Origin: Maricaulis maris
GTDB lineage: Bacteria > Pseudomonadota > Alphaproteobacteria > Caulobacterales > Maricaulaceae
Assembly: GCF_036322705.1 (NCBI RefSeq)
Contig: NZ_AP027270.1
Location: 1,861,501-1,925,500, forward strand
DNA length: 64,000 bases
Reading direction: 5' to 3'
The notes under the pieces are model-generated. The model saw nothing but the letters and a program-made list of their open reading frames with translations, ran no database searches and was not told the DNA's origin. Shown here piece after piece: positions 3,280 through 51,262 of the stretch. Both the position numbers and the translations under genes were made by a program. How positions within the stretch are numbered: position 1 is the first letter of the stretch; every line of letters begins with the position of its first letter.

Positions 3280-3380
3280 ACCGTCATCCCACGGTCGATA
3301 CGCAGCAGCGATCCGGGGGACCTCTGTTTTCCCGTCGACAGAATAGCTGAGGGCCCCCGGACAAGCCGGGGGATGACGGT
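3280..3380. repeat. Intergenic palindromic repeat R1, copy c
   Basis: It starts with ACCGTCATCCCACGG and ends with GGGGGATGACGGT, with an inner GGGGGACCT facing a GGGCCCCCGG variant. It is a more diverged member of the family at 1-138, 376-524 and 51007-51106. Confidence 0.6.
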
Positions 3381-21134: not shown

Positions 21135-23405
21135 ATGCACTACTTACCGCTTGCCAGGCGGTTGGGTGTGGGGCTCGCCGGCCTCGCCCTCGCCGCCTGC
21201 AGTCAGGAGACTGCCATGACGACCGACACTTCGGCCGCCAATACCACGGCCGTGACCACCCATGGCGCGCTGATCACCCGCGCCCAGGGCCTTGAGGCGC
21301 CGCGCGCCGAACAGCGCCCGGTCACCATCGAGCAGGTCGGCTTCACCCGGGTCGATGAATATCAGTGGATCAAGGACGATAACTGGCAGCAGGTGATGCG
21401 CGAGCCGGAAGTCCTCGACAGCGATGTCCGCGAGCTGCTCGACGCCGAGAACGCCTATCTCGATGCCGTCATGGAGCCGACCGAAGCCCTGCAGGAACGG
21501 ATTTTCCAGGAGATCCGCGGCCGCATCAAGGAAGACGACAGCTCGGTCCCCGAGCGCGATGGCGACTATGCCTACTACACCCGCTACCGCGAAGGCGGCC
21601 AGTATCCGGTCTTCGCCCGTCGCCCGGTGGATCCGGAAACCGGCGAACCGGCCGGTGACGAGGAAATCCTCGTCGATGGCGACGCCGAAGCCGCCGATTT
21701 CGATTATCTCGATTTCTCCGACATGGAGCACTCGCCCGACCACCGCTATGTCGCCTTCGGCGTCGATGTGCGCGGGTCGGAGTATTACGAGATCCGCGTC
21801 AAGGACGTCGCCACCGGCGCCATTGTCGCTACCCTCACCGATGAGAGCTCGGGCGATTTCACCTGGGCCAATGACAGCGCCACCCTGTACTGGGTCTGGC
21901 GTGACGATAATGGCCGCTCCAAGCGCGTCTATCGCCAACCGGCCAATGGTGGTCCCTCCGAGCTGGTCTATGAGGAGCCCGATGACGGCTTCTTCGTCTC
22001 GGTCGGCCTGACCGACAACAACAACCACGTCATGATCAATGCCGGCGGTCACACCTCCAACGAGATCCGCCTGATTGACGCCAATGACGCGACCGCCGAA
22101 CCGGTGCTGATCTCGGCTCGCGAGGACGGCGTCGAATATTATCTGACCGAAGCCAGCGATCGCTACTATTTCCGCACCAATGCGGATGGCGCGGTCGACT
22201 TCAAGATCGTCTCCGCCCCGATCGACAATCCGGGTCGCGAAAACTGGGAAGACTTCATCCCGCACCGCCCCGGCACGCTGATCAACGGCGTCATCGGCCT
22301 GGCTGACTGGCAGGTCCGTGTCGAACGCGAGAACGCCCTGCCGCGCATCGTTGTGCACGAATACGCCACCGGCGAGGAATACAATATCGCCTTTGACGAG
22401 GAAGCCTATTCGCTGGGTGCCTCGGCCGGCTACGAGTTCGCGACCGACATGCTGCGCTTCTCCTATGAGAGCCCGTCAACGCCGGAAGAGACCTATGACT
22501 TCAACCTGCGTTCGCGTGAGCGCACGCTGCTGAAGCGCCAGGAAATCCCCTCCGGTCACAATCCGGAGGACTATGTCGTCCGCCGCATCATGGCCCCCGG
22601 CCATGACGGGGCCCAGATCCCGGTCACCATTCTCTACCACCGCGACACGCCGATCGACGGTAGCGCCCCGCTGCTGCTCTATGGCTATGGCTCCTACGGG
22701 ATCACCATTCCGGCCGGCTTCCGCGTCACCCCGCTCTCGCTGGTCGATCGCGGCATGGTCTATGCCACCGCCCATATCCGGGGCGGCATGGCCAACGGCT
22801 ATCAGTGGTATCTTGACGGCAAGCTGGACCAGAAGATGAACACCTTCCGCGACTTCGTCTCGGCCGGTGAAGCCCTGTCCGAGCTCGGCTATACCAGCCG
22901 CGGCCAGATTGTCGCCTATGGCGGTTCGGCCGGTGGCCTGCTCGTCGGTGCCGCGATCAACCTGCAGCCCGACCTGTTCGCCGGTGCCATCGCCGCCGTT
23001 CCCTTTGTCGATGTGATCAACACCATGTCGGATCCGGAACTGCCGCTGACCCCGCCGGAATGGCCGGAATGGGGAAACCCGATCGAGAGCGCGGAAGATT
23101 ATCAGACGATGATCGCCTACTCGCCCTACGACCAGATCCAGGAAATGGCCTATCCCCACGTCCTGGCCACCGGCGGCCTGACCGATCCGCGCGTCACCTA
23201 TTGGGAGCCGACCAAATTCGTCGCCCGCCTGCGCGACCGCCGGACCGATGACGGCCTGACCCTGCTGAAGATGAATATGGGTGCCGGCCATGGCGGCGCC
23301 TCGGGCCGTTTCGACAGCCTGCGCGAAACCGCCCTCAACTGGGCCTTCGCCCTGATGGCGGTCGGCCTTGCCGACAGCGAAGTTGAGGCCATCGCGGCTG
23401 AGTAG
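21135..23405 (+). CDS. S9 family oligopeptidase (oligopeptidase B-like) lipoprotein
   Basis: Prolyl-oligopeptidase family serine peptidase that would cut peptides, probably after basic residues if it is a true oligopeptidase B. The 756-residue product has an N-terminal beta-propeller and a C-terminal alpha/beta-hydrolase domain. The catalytic triad is readable as Ser598 in YGGSAGG, Asp684 in LTDPRV and His719 in AGHGGASGR. The start carries a lipoprotein signal (LALAAC, Cys22), so the enzyme is expected on the periplasmic side of a membrane. GAGGGGAATC precedes the ATG at 21135. Last gene of the MFS-msrB unit. Confidence 0.9.
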   Translation: MHYLPLARRLGVGLAGLALAACSQETAMTTDTSAANTTAVTTHGALITRAQGLEAPRAEQRPVTIEQVGFTRVDEYQWIKDDNWQQVMREPEVLDSDVRELLDAENAYLDAVMEPTEALQERIFQEIRGRIKEDDSSVPERDGDYAYYTRYREGGQYPVFARRPVDPETGEPAGDEEILVDGDAEAADFDYLDFSDMEHSPDHRYVAFGVDVRGSEYYEIRVKDVATGAIVATLTDESSGDFTWANDSATLYWVWRDDNGRSKRVYRQPANGGPSELVYEEPDDGFFVSVGLTDNNNHVMINAGGHTSNEIRLIDANDATAEPVLISAREDGVEYYLTEASDRYYFRTNADGAVDFKIVSAPIDNPGRENWEDFIPHRPGTLINGVIGLADWQVRVERENALPRIVVHEYATGEEYNIAFDEEAYSLGASAGYEFATDMLRFSYESPSTPEETYDFNLRSRERTLLKRQEIPSGHNPEDYVVRRIMAPGHDGAQIPVTILYHRDTPIDGSAPLLLYGYGSYGITIPAGFRVTPLSLVDRGMVYATAHIRGGMANGYQWYLDGKLDQKMNTFRDFVSAGEALSELGYTSRGQIVAYGGSAGGLLVGAAINLQPDLFAGAIAAVPFVDVINTMSDPELPLTPPEWPEWGNPIESAEDYQTMIAYSPYDQIQEMAYPHVLATGGLTDPRVTYWEPTKFVARLRDRRTDDGLTLLKMNMGAGHGGASGRFDSLRETALNWAFALMAVGLADSEVEAIAAE

Positions 23406-23426
23406 AGCTGCGGGGCAATTCCCACA

Positions 23427-23546
23427 TTTGTCTTCCCGGATGGACGCCCCGCGCAGGCGGGGCGCAAGTCCGGGACCTAGATGTTCGAACAGTTAGGTCC
23501 CCGCCCTGCACCCCGCCTACGCGGGGTGTCCGGCGGGGATGACAAA
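23427..23546. repeat. Structured inverted repeat R3, left copy
   Basis: A 120-base element with terminal TTTGTC and GACAAA and two 8-bp hairpins with four-base loops (CGCCCCGC/GCGGGGCG at 23445-23464 and CACCCCGC/GCGGGGTG at 23509-23528). It is the inverted counterpart of 23922-24043. The pair frames the GIY-YIG gene. Differences between the copies preserve base pairing in the stems. Confidence 0.8.
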
Positions 23547-23551
23547 TGGGA

Positions 23552-23929
23552 TCAGGTCTTGTTGCTTTCCCACGCCCGCATGCCCTCCGGCACGACTTCA
23601 CGCGGGTCAACACCGCCCATCTCCCAGTACAGATCCCGCCAATCGGGATTGGCCGTCTCGATCAGATTGATCTTCCAGGCCCGGCGCCAGCGCTTGATCC
23701 GCTTCTCACGGGTGATGGCATTATTGATCAGCTCATGGCTCTCGAACCAGACAAGCCGATCGACGCCGTAACGCGCCGTGAACCCACCGGCCTTGCGAAC
23801 CTTGTGTGAATAGACCCGCGCCAGCAATTCACGGGTGACCCCGCAATAGAGCATGCCATTCTTGTGTGTAGCAAGAAGGTATACGTGGAACGTGAATGCA
23901 ATTATAAATTGTGTTTGGCATTTTGTCAT
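23552..23929 (-). CDS. Solo GIY-YIG endonuclease family protein
   Basis: Product of 125 residues containing a UvrC/homing-endonuclease type GIY-YIG fold: FHVYLLATHKNGMLYCGVT at residues about 14-32 (the Y...Y-G core), the Arg-bearing helix HKVRKAGGFTARYGVDRLVW, and the metal-binding Glu region AITREKRIKRWRRAWKINLIE. The usual function would be DNA strand cleavage. It is a stand-alone domain. The ATG lies inside the right R3 repeat (GTCAT on the plus strand) and the stop lies six bases from the left R3 repeat, so the gene fills the space between inverted repeats almost exactly. This suggests a small mobile or selfish unit; that is inference. Confidence 0.87.
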   Translation of the reverse strand: MTKCQTQFIIAFTFHVYLLATHKNGMLYCGVTRELLARVYSHKVRKAGGFTARYGVDRLVWFESHELINNAITREKRIKRWRRAWKINLIETANPDWRDLYWEMGGVDPREVVPEGMRAWESNKT

Positions 23930-24043
23930 CCCCGTCGGATGTCCGGCGAAGGCCGGACGCAGGGCGGGGACCTAACTGCTTGCAACCACATAGGTCCCTG
24001 ACTTGCGCCCGGCCTTCGCCGGGCGTCCATCAGGGATGACAAA
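23922..24043. repeat. Structured inverted repeat R3, right copy
   Basis: A 122-base element in the opposite orientation to 23427-23546, with hairpins GTCCGGC/GCCGGAC (23941-23958) and CGCCCGGC/GCCGGGCG (24006-24025), each with a four-base loop. It starts TTTGTCATCC and ends GGGATGACAAA. The start codon of the GIY-YIG gene is within it. Confidence 0.8.
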
Positions 24044-24056
24044 CACCGGGAGGGGT

Positions 24057-24087
24057 GTCGTGGGTGGGGGCGCCCCCCACCCACGAC
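24057..24087 (-). terminator. Strong hairpin after the second tonB gene
   Basis: GTCGTGGGTGGGG and CCCCACCCACGAC form a 13-bp stem around GGCGCC, eight bases beyond the stop codon of the 24095-24712 gene. There is no T-run on the minus strand, so it may be a factor-dependent stop or RNA-stabilising structure rather than a classical terminator. Confidence 0.5.
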
Positions 24088-24094
24088 GGGTCAC

Positions 24095-24712
24095 CTACCC
24101 ATCAAGGCGGAAGTCGAGCCGCGTCGTGGCGCCGCGGAAGAGGATGGGCTGACCATTCTCGACTTGCGGGTTGTAGCGCCAGCGGCTGACAGCGTTGAGC
24201 GTGGCCTGCTCGAAGCCGCGACTGTCACAAGCCATCGGACGGATATTCGTCGTTGTGCCCTGCGGGGTGATATCGAACATCACCGTGCAGCTGCCAGAGT
24301 TTCCGCGCGACGCCTCAATGGCCGGGTAGACCGGCTCGATCCGGACGATGGGGACCGGCGAGCGATCAATCGGGACAAGGCCTTCGGTGGTCGTGACCTC
24401 GACCGGATCGACAGGGGGCAACACATAGGTGATGCCCTCGCCGATATCCGTTGGCAATGCGGTTTCGATAACAAGACGGGCGGCCGGCGGCGGCGGCTCG
24501 ACCGCCGGGATGTCGACGAGCGTGACGCGAACGTCAGGGACGATCTCCTCCGGTACGTCATTGATCACGAAGCGCGGTGTATCGACCTCCTGGACGCGCT
24601 CCACCATCGGCACGGCGATCAGGTCTCGCATCAGAAGAAACAGTCCGACAGTGATTGCGCCGGCGACCGGCAGCACTATCGGGGTACGAAGGTTTTGGAC
24701 TATGGCTGTCAT
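24095..24712 (-). CDS. TonB family protein (second copy)
   Basis: Energy transducer linking the inner-membrane proton motive force to outer-membrane receptors. The 205-residue product has one N-terminal membrane helix, a periplasmic linker with a short PPPP stretch, and a C-terminal TonB domain with VRIEPVYPAIEASRGNSG, VMFDITPQGTTTNI and AVSRWRYNPQVENGQP. It is clearly related to the TonB at 28384-29001, with the same length, same domain order and matching final residues (RLDFRL). It lies downstream of the second TPR gene, and there is no second set of ExbB/ExbD genes, so it would have to share the motor encoded at 29.0-31.8 kb. Confidence 0.88.
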   Translation of the reverse strand: MTAIVQNLRTPIVLPVAGAITVGLFLLMRDLIAVPMVERVQEVDTPRFVINDVPEEIVPDVRVTLVDIPAVEPPPPAARLVIETALPTDIGEGITYVLPPVDPVEVTTTEGLVPIDRSPVPIVRIEPVYPAIEASRGNSGSCTVMFDITPQGTTTNIRPMACDSRGFEQATLNAVSRWRYNPQVENGQPILFRGATTRLDFRLDG

Positions 24713-51006: not shown

Positions 51007-51106
51007 CCGTCATCCCACGGCTTGTCCGGGGGACCTCAGCTCACCTGCCAGCTGGCTGGCTGAGGTCCCCCGGATGCCCGCCTCGCGGTCACCGGGGGAT
51101 GACGGT
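51007..51106. repeat. Intergenic palindromic repeat R1, copy d
   Basis: It starts CCGTCATCCCACGG and ends GGGGGATGACGGT. The inner dyad TCCGGGGGACCTCAGC (51025-51040) and GCTGAGGTCCCCCGGA (51059-51074) is a perfect 16-bp inverted repeat. Confidence 0.7.
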
Positions 51107-51180: not shown

Positions 51181-51262
51181 CCGTATCGGGTTTTTGAGCG
51201 CGAGGGTGAAACCGCGAAGCGGCGGCTTTGCCGCCCTTGACCTGAAGACCCGGATACGGCGC
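51181..51262. repeat. Repeat R4, diverged copy
   Basis: It shares the right arm CCCTTGACCTGAAGAC / CCGGATACGGCG and flanking bases (CGGCAAG, CCGCGGGCGC) with R4 at 224-300. Its left arm has decayed. It follows R1 in the same order as at the left edge of the window. Confidence 0.6.

Follow-up and report, generated by a model that had tools for sequence, protein, structure and literature searches.

REPs are widespread in bacterial genomes and have been sorted into two superfamilies, GTAG and CGTC, the second of which is mostly alphaproteobacterial (Di Nocera et al. 2013, PMC3733652). Members of the CGTC superfamily, among them neisserial dRS3 and rickettsial RPE-4/6, carry the tag CGTC, TGTC or CCTC, a stem of 8-9 bp that starts with AT and a CCA tail, and are arranged as facing dimers (PMC3733652). 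For the GTAG superfamily an enzyme is known, the HUH Y1 transposase RAYT (TnpA-REP), which together with GTAG REPs or REPINs makes up the REPtron, and RAYT protein lineages and their REPs co-evolve (PMC8266576). For the CGTC superfamily none was described: the survey characterizes it as apparently lacking a dedicated transposase, leaves the question open and gives no associated enzyme (PMC3733652).

Here we analyze a stretch of 64,000 nucleotides, hereafter the window, that lies on a 3.14-Mb Maricaulis chromosome (genome G000) and holds a stand-alone GIY-YIG nuclease gene between two REP dimers. The locus resembles a REPtron in that a small nuclease gene is framed by repeats, that gene-less dimers are dispersed and that repeats are matched to the protein lineage. 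It differs in its enzyme, which belongs to the unrelated GIY-YIG nuclease superfamily (PF01541 is the sole Pfam match and there is no Y1 domain at the gene), and in its tag, which is CGTC/TGTC and not GTAG. Such an arrangement would work like a REPtron with an enzyme of another superfamily, and would constitute a new class if mobilization were shown. Free-standing homing endonucleases of the I-TevI/Seg type are the other relevant GIY-YIG system; they share with the window gene the stand-alone catalytic domain and the presence or absence of the gene at orthologous sites, whereas the window gene has no second Pfam domain (NUMOD), no Rfam intron match and a position between structured, lineage-specific repeats. 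A link between GIY-YIG genes and REPs was not found in full-text literature searches judged by titles and abstract openings, a scope that leaves out subscription papers and preprints and makes an unseen report possible. The one paper in which both 'GIY-YIG' and 'repetitive extragenic' occur, PMC9465073, mentions them without connection, in different rows of gene lists and in the title of a reference, and a text search found GIY absent from PMC12306157 and PMC5082802.

The GIY-YIG gene of the window and its framing repeats

The features at the locus are as follows:

23427..23546, no strand: REP dimer (REPIN-like) 3' of the gene, units at 23430-23479 (plus, tag degenerated to GTCT) and 23494-23543 (minus)
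23552..23929, minus strand: gene of 125 codons for a stand-alone GIY-YIG nuclease, with PF01541 matched over residues 15-88 (E 4.1e-12)
23922..24043, no strand: REP dimer 5' of the gene and reaching into its first codons, with units at 23925-23974 (plus) and 23991-24040 (minus)
21135-23405: prolyl oligopeptidase gene, one neighbor
24095-24712, minus strand: TonB-like gene, the other neighbor

A preliminary description of this DNA had presented the two repeats as inverted copies, and so they are, with 82% agreement over 120 bases. Each can be folded into the two hairpins proposed there, and each is also an imperfect palindrome of two facing units of about 50 nt, such that one long hairpin is possible instead. 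The distance between the nuclease stop codon and the adjoining repeat is five bases and not six. The ATG had been placed inside the other repeat; the frame from this codon is indeed open in the window and in the relative G015, but it may not be the ancestral start. Codon 13 (window 23891-23893) is ATG in G015 and in a further relative, G006, and ACG in the window copy, and the window gene may therefore start at the in-repeat ATG.

Within each dimer TTTGTC lies at both outer ends and the GGGACCTA tails lie inside, the tag of one unit being degenerated. With their CGTC/TGTC tag, CCA-like tail and facing dimers, the repeats that frame GIY-YIG genes resemble the REPs of the CGTC superfamily. In named genomes such as that of Aeromonas fluvialis (locus L170) the gene stands between units of canonical appearance; there and at locus L151 the AT-starting stem of 8-9 bp fits as well. 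The Maricaulis unit is longer (50 nt, with an outer 7-bp and an inner 8-bp stem, the T of the AT start being paired and the A unpaired) and carries GGGACCYA instead of GGGATCCA; its tags are TGTC, one degenerated to GTCT, while CGTC and TGTC dominate elsewhere. Because it is a longer variant, we call it CGTC-type and do not regard it as a proven member of the superfamily. When the first repeat was used as query, the 3.14-Mb genome yielded one other full-length match (C1:726852) and three partial ones. The unit pattern GTCATCCC..GGGACCYA matched nine times in the genome, three of these at the GIY-YIG gene, and its reversed control did not match at all.

The window also contains a second type of REP (CCGTCATCCCACGG..), present as four dimers at 1-137, 377-523, 3281-3380 and 51007-51105, which resemble the repeats of another nuclease lineage (L055/L057/L082). 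A search of the window's own genome for relatives of the window protein found no nuclease of that type. An inverted repeat distinct from these dimers (ccgtatccggttcttcaggtcaaggg / cccttgacctgaagaaccggatacgg, with a variant) occurs at 224-300, between two direct dimers of the second type, and at 51181-51259, just beyond one.

The protein

GIY-YIG (PF01541) is the only Pfam domain of the window protein, with no other at E 0.001. Residues Y17, Y28, R38, H42 and E75 are invariant among aligned relatives; the tyrosines of the GIY and YIG motifs (Y17 and Y28), the arginine R38 and the glutamate E75 are so in sets of 19 and of 35 sequences, and it is these Tyr, Arg and Glu positions that we take to be catalytic in the GIY-YIG domain. 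A C-terminal stretch, KxWxRxWKxxLIExxNPxWxDL, is conserved in relatives. Two comparisons of the window gene with orthologues gave a dN/dS of about 0.08, the mark of purifying selection.

The predicted structure has a confident core (mean pLDDT 86.4). Its closest solved fold is that of UPF0213 protein BH0048 (1zg2; E 1.1e-3, 25% identity), a weak match by TM-score (0.45 by query length); the next resemblance, to Slx1, which according to the titles of its structure entries processes branched DNA, is weaker still (E 0.06 and weaker) and likewise weak by TM-score. No sequence relative of a solved structure was found at E 0.001.

Several assignments were discarded. The window protein, with its 125 codons and one domain, lacks the UvrB-binding and EndoV-like C-terminal domains of UvrC/Cho; a separate GIY match in a long frame of 670 aa at C1:1982373 was taken as UvrC. 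There was no PADLOC match to a known defense protein, the best match to a phage family was a PHROG at E 0.022, and both tRNAs lie more than 9 kb away, which speaks against a tRNA target. All 13 Rfam matches in 23300-24200 stay below the gathering score, and none is to an intron. No NCBIfam family was found for the three GIY-YIG proteins of G000.

CGTC-type units frame GIY-YIG genes across genomes

Relatives of the window protein occur in 50 of 61 genomes, with up to eight matches each, some of them with internal stops. A first set was made up of the best-scoring 90 loci of the matches listed plus locus L008, which gave 93 scored matches, 89 of them with full flanks; weaker matches stayed outside, except for a few that entered the second-clade set described below. 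The left and right 350-bp flanks matched each other (score of at least 25) in 62 of the 89 loci, compared with one of 86 for control flanks 550-900 bp away, that one being a tandem array. The inverted framing seen at the window gene is not general: the matches in the 62 loci are direct in 48 and inverted in 49, and many loci count in both groups owing to the palindromic nature of the repeats. Most of the framing repeats shown follow one design, i.e., [C/T]GTCAT, stem-loop and CCA-like tail, a spacer and the mirror image, with a sequence that varies by genome.

We then scored CGTC-type units within 350 bp of the gene by a rule that requires [GC]TCAT, leaves the preceding base free and does not ask for the tail. 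Such units lie near 74 of the 89 first-set genes (on both sides in 45) and in 18 of 85 distal controls; they number 210 near the genes and six after shuffling. The tags among 216 units near first-set genes are CGTCA (91), TGTCA (83), GCTCA (23) and CCTCA (12), and the commonest tails are CCCA (77), CCTC (22), TCCA (19) and CCTA (18), the window units ending in CTA. Fifteen of the 89 loci are without a CGTC-type unit and 27 without a flank-to-flank repeat.

A second set of 110 loci was drawn from named genomes and a phylum sample, and the rule, fixed beforehand, was applied to it unchanged. After omission of nine duplicates or copies of the window itself (L121, L122, L133, L180, L181, L191, L201, L204 and L208), 101 loci were scored, of which 92 had full flanks; these apparently still include at least one pair of duplicates (L174, L214). 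CGTC-type units were found near 89 of the 92 genes (both sides in 71) and in 20 of 86 controls, and flank-to-flank repeats in 62 of 92 compared with two of 86. The record titles name Chloroflexi, Omnitrophota, Planctomycetaceae, Nitrospirae, Alpha-, Beta-, Gamma- and Deltaproteobacteria and flavobacterial genera, many of these records being metagenome bins whose labels can be wrong. In Aeromonas fluvialis (L170), CCGTCATTCCCGCGCAGGCGGGAATCCAGG stands on both sides of the GIY-YIG gene; one of 16 example loci, L165, is without a good flank match. The same class of repeat is hence associated with GIY-YIG genes in relatives and in the broader set (74/89 and 89/92), and we are all but sure that nuclease and folded repeats belong together.

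Each nuclease lineage has its own repeat family

If a nuclease recognizes its own repeat, members of a lineage should carry matching repeats at unrelated places. Merging orthologous loci reduced 40 Maricaulis loci to 21 sites, and a repeat was counted as shared at a score of at least 40; a site pair may enter several bands. Among site pairs from different Maricaulis genomes, the repeat is shared in 26 of 40 when protein identity is at least 65% and in six of 163 when it is below 55%. The correlation between identity and repeat over the 21 sites was reached by none of 2000 permutations. The same holds within single Maricaulis genomes, where none of 32 pairs below 55% identity shares a repeat and four of five at 65% or more do. 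A Mantel test over the full set of 93 matches gave a correlation of 0.44, a value attained by none of 1000 permutations. The pairing is cognate: each nuclease lineage goes with its own repeat family.

The window's genome itself provides an example. At locus L008 (G000:C1:2163684-2165490) two further solo GIY-YIG genes form a tandem array of 546 bp in which a 134-nt repeat is present four times, and these genes are framed by another repeat than the window gene. The L008 repeat has 27 hits in the genome, 23 of them elsewhere and mostly partial. G015 has a GIY-YIG gene (L091) at the L008 site. An AT-rich palindrome, TGCAATTATAAATTG(CA), is found in the window at 23897-23911, just 5' of the probable original start of the GIY-YIG gene, and likewise 5' of each GIY-YIG gene of L008, which is of a different lineage; the palindrome could be an operator.

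As a control we took 20 loci (L231-L250) picked from the weaker matches, which belong mostly to a small GIY clade with the signature VYILRC.DGSYYTGHT... CGTC-type units occur at only two of these 20 loci, fewer than in their own distal flanks (7/20). Flank-to-flank repeats are nonetheless present at 13 of 20, distal controls scoring at most 24 in those 13, and are mostly CCCTTCGA..CTCAGGG or CATCCTGAGG..CCTCGAAGGATG. A TCGA-type rule (TTCGA..CTCAG) picks out 14 of the 20 loci (distal flanks, 4/20), a count that is post hoc because the rule was written after these loci had been viewed; in the first clade it picks out three of 89 (distal flanks, 4/84). The second clade thus goes with a different palindrome instead of none.

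These comparisons bear on the idea that REPs and solo GIY-YIG genes simply pile up, independently of each other, in tolerant intergenic regions. Units do occur in distal controls as well (18/85 and 20/86), as shared landing pads would predict. Independent accumulation does not account, however, for lineage-specific pairing even within one genome (0/32 pairs below 55% identity), for the cross-table of the two clades (CGTC-type 74/89 vs. 2/20, TCGA-type 3/89 vs. 14/20) or for the presence at the window gene of three of the genome's only nine units, and we hold it to be very improbable.

The fold of the repeat and its paired changes

The preliminary description had noted compensatory changes in the stems and had concluded that the fold itself appears to be selected. 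For 28 of the 31 distinct 50-nt units from fetched loci, 98.1% of the cells in the two-stem structure are paired, as compared to 84.4% in shuffled sets, double-change cells number 52 compared with 15.5, and the covariation score is 0.365 compared with 0.113 and with at most 0.067 when partners were slid. None of 500 shuffles reached any of these three values, whereas the number of pairs with a double change and the number of pair types showed no excess over shuffles. Because paired cells, double changes and covariation all beat the shuffles, we take the compensatory changes to be real, and in this larger alignment the variation respects pairing. The step from there to selection is less direct: such changes show that the stems stay paired, yet quasi-palindromes can also acquire them through template-switch correction, and this could have happened here without selection.

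Covarying stems, and the fact that REPs are often plausibly transcribed (PMC3733652), would also suit a role at the RNA level only, in which the hairpins would terminate or stabilize the nuclease transcript and the DNA would play no part. Dimers that stand on both sides of the gene and match in direct orientation as often as in inverted orientation, and copies that are dispersed without a gene, do not fit such a role, which we judge to be highly improbable as the main one, although it may exist as a side function.

Dispersed dimers and Y1 transposases in Maricaulis

In 19 Maricaulis genomes the pattern GTCATCCCN{20,50}GGGACCYA finds between 0 and 73 units per genome, nine in the window's own, and none in any genome when reversed. 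G015 has the most (73); G013 has 53, G011 50, G016 43, G018 32, G014 29 and G006 25, and facing pairs of units are frequent among the matches listed. The repeats had been thought of as ends private to one mini-element; instead, they are REP dimers scattered over the genome, and in most Maricaulis genomes there are more of them than of the genes. The Y1 transposase domain (PF01797) was not found in 14 of the 19 genomes, some of which are incomplete, and these include G015, the richest in repeats, as well as G013, G016, G018, G014 and G006. It is present in the other five, among them G011 and the window's genome, where two copies lie away from the GIY-YIG gene.

Unit and gene counts are weakly correlated (Spearman 0.50, p 0.03, relatedness ignored), and genomes with a window-clade gene have more units than those without (n = 10 vs. 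9, one-sided p 0.033, hand-grouped and relatedness ignored). Dimers are also present in G016 and G018 (43 and 32 units) without a window-clade gene, so that they can be maintained without this gene being constantly active. This persistence, together with the purifying selection on the gene and the fold resemblance to Slx1 and UPF0213, is what a nuclease in the service of the host would lead one to expect. Such an enzyme would trim or resolve REP cruciforms, in the manner of SbcCD or of Slx1, the adjoining REPs would be regulatory or parking sites, and something else would spread them. The patchy presence of the gene, with 0 to 8 matches per genome and internal stops in some, is unlike that of a housekeeping gene, however, and a general resolvase would have no need for its gene to be flanked on either side by repeats specific to its lineage; we therefore consider a host-serving role quite improbable.

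Occupied, single-dimer and empty sites

Three orthologous sites, which we term W, A and E, hold dimer-gene-dimer in some Maricaulis genomes and one dimer in others, and the occupied and empty alleles that the preliminary description had called for thus exist. At site W, that of the window, the arrangement is dimer-gene-dimer in G000 and G015, while G006 has the gene and one dimer at a contig edge (L013, G006:C188). Without a gene, G016 has a single full dimer and G018 a collapsed remnant. At site A the gene is present in G014 and G015, and one dimer without a gene in G000 and G018; of the other ten gene-less genomes, eight are without a unit and two have a single one. The single dimers of G000 (L251) and G018 (L252), when read by eye, lie in opposite orientation relative to their neighbors. 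At site E, G015, G018, G013 and G012 carry the gene and G016 one cognate dimer without it; none of the other ten genomes read has a cognate dimer, two have a stray unit, and G009, whose gene L090 lies outside the site, has neither gene nor unit there.

Further sites were not counted as having single-dimer alleles. At sites B and D the REP dimers of relatives are of another type or length, at site C none of the four relatives read has a unit, and at site F ten relatives comprise one with an array of eight units, two with a single unit and seven with none. The array (L287, G008:C45:1327-2247) lies where other Maricaulis hold a GIY-YIG gene.

Alleles of this kind can be read in terms of homing. 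A free-standing homing endonuclease would target the REP dimer, repair from a dimer-gene-dimer donor would copy the gene in with the dimers as homology arms, and REP dispersal would have another cause. GIY-YIG is a classic homing-nuclease domain (PMC1564403), cognate pairing is expected on this account, and at sites W, A and E some genomes do have a single dimer in place of the dimer-gene-dimer of their sisters. At site W in G006, moreover, the gene is inverted relative to its TonB-like neighbor, as compared to the window and G015, which independent entry into a near-symmetrical dimer would allow; either this or an inversion between the dimers is required. The flipped gene counts slightly in favor of homing and against the REPtron-like reading given below. 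On the other hand, the genes at site W branch in the order of the species tree (the window first, then G015 together with G006), as would follow if a single ancient locus had undergone losses and an inversion between dimers. The direction of change at this site was read from the trees by eye, the gene tree omitting three of the 93 rows, and the trees fit a locus that was occupied long ago and whose gene was later lost in some genomes, where one dimer, a remnant or no trace stayed behind. The window protein is also without a second Pfam domain such as NUMOD, and homing leaves unexplained how dimers arrive at dimer-free sites, 12 of 16 fully read genomes having no unit at site W. Homing is the main rival, and we consider it unlikely.

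A proposed REPtron-like unit with a GIY-YIG nuclease

The explanation we favor, with a probability of roughly 0.53, is a REPtron-like unit in which the GIY-YIG nuclease acts on its cognate REP hairpins and mobilizes REPs. It builds on what the loci show, namely genes framed by repeats, cognate pairing, gene-less dimers dispersed over the genomes, purifying selection with conserved GIY-YIG residues and single-dimer alleles in sister genomes; hairpin recognition, the cut and a causal role in dispersal are what we infer beyond them. The earlier idea that joins a stand-alone GIY-YIG enzyme with folded repeat ends holds up in its core, whereas cleavage by the enzyme and movement of the unit are putative.

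According to this REPtron-like model, the window holds one such unit, a solo GIY-YIG nuclease with a copy of its cognate CGTC-type REP dimer on either side. Every lineage of the nuclease would recognize the folded form of its own REP family (the tag GTCAT and the stem-loop), and a cut at the hairpin or cruciform would promote the copying or rejoining of REP dimers at new places. New dimers would persist as gene-less elements and could be worked on in trans. Exchange between the flanking dimers would keep, flip or lose the gene and could leave a single dimer. No target-site duplication or insertion junction was defined at the examined sites.

The general picture that emerges suggests that solo GIY-YIG nucleases are the missing enzymes of a widespread class of palindromic repeats said to lack one. 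More tentatively, and at odds a little short of even, we propose that they form a second class of REP-mobilizing enzymes, one that crosses phyla and is not related to the HUH RAYTs. At least two nuclease clades would be paired with palindromes of at least two superfamilies (the CGTC type and the TTCGA..CTCAG type), and these enzymes would account for a large part of the palindromic repeats in Alphaproteobacteria and in many other bacteria. With a lineage-matched nuclease found beside CGTC repeats in records labeled as several phyla, the question becomes one for a bench test of hairpin binding and cutting. If the proposal is true, it would offer a role for a large group of small genes of which no more than the GIY-YIG domain is known, and a nuclease and a DNA structure would be added as a new co-evolving pair.
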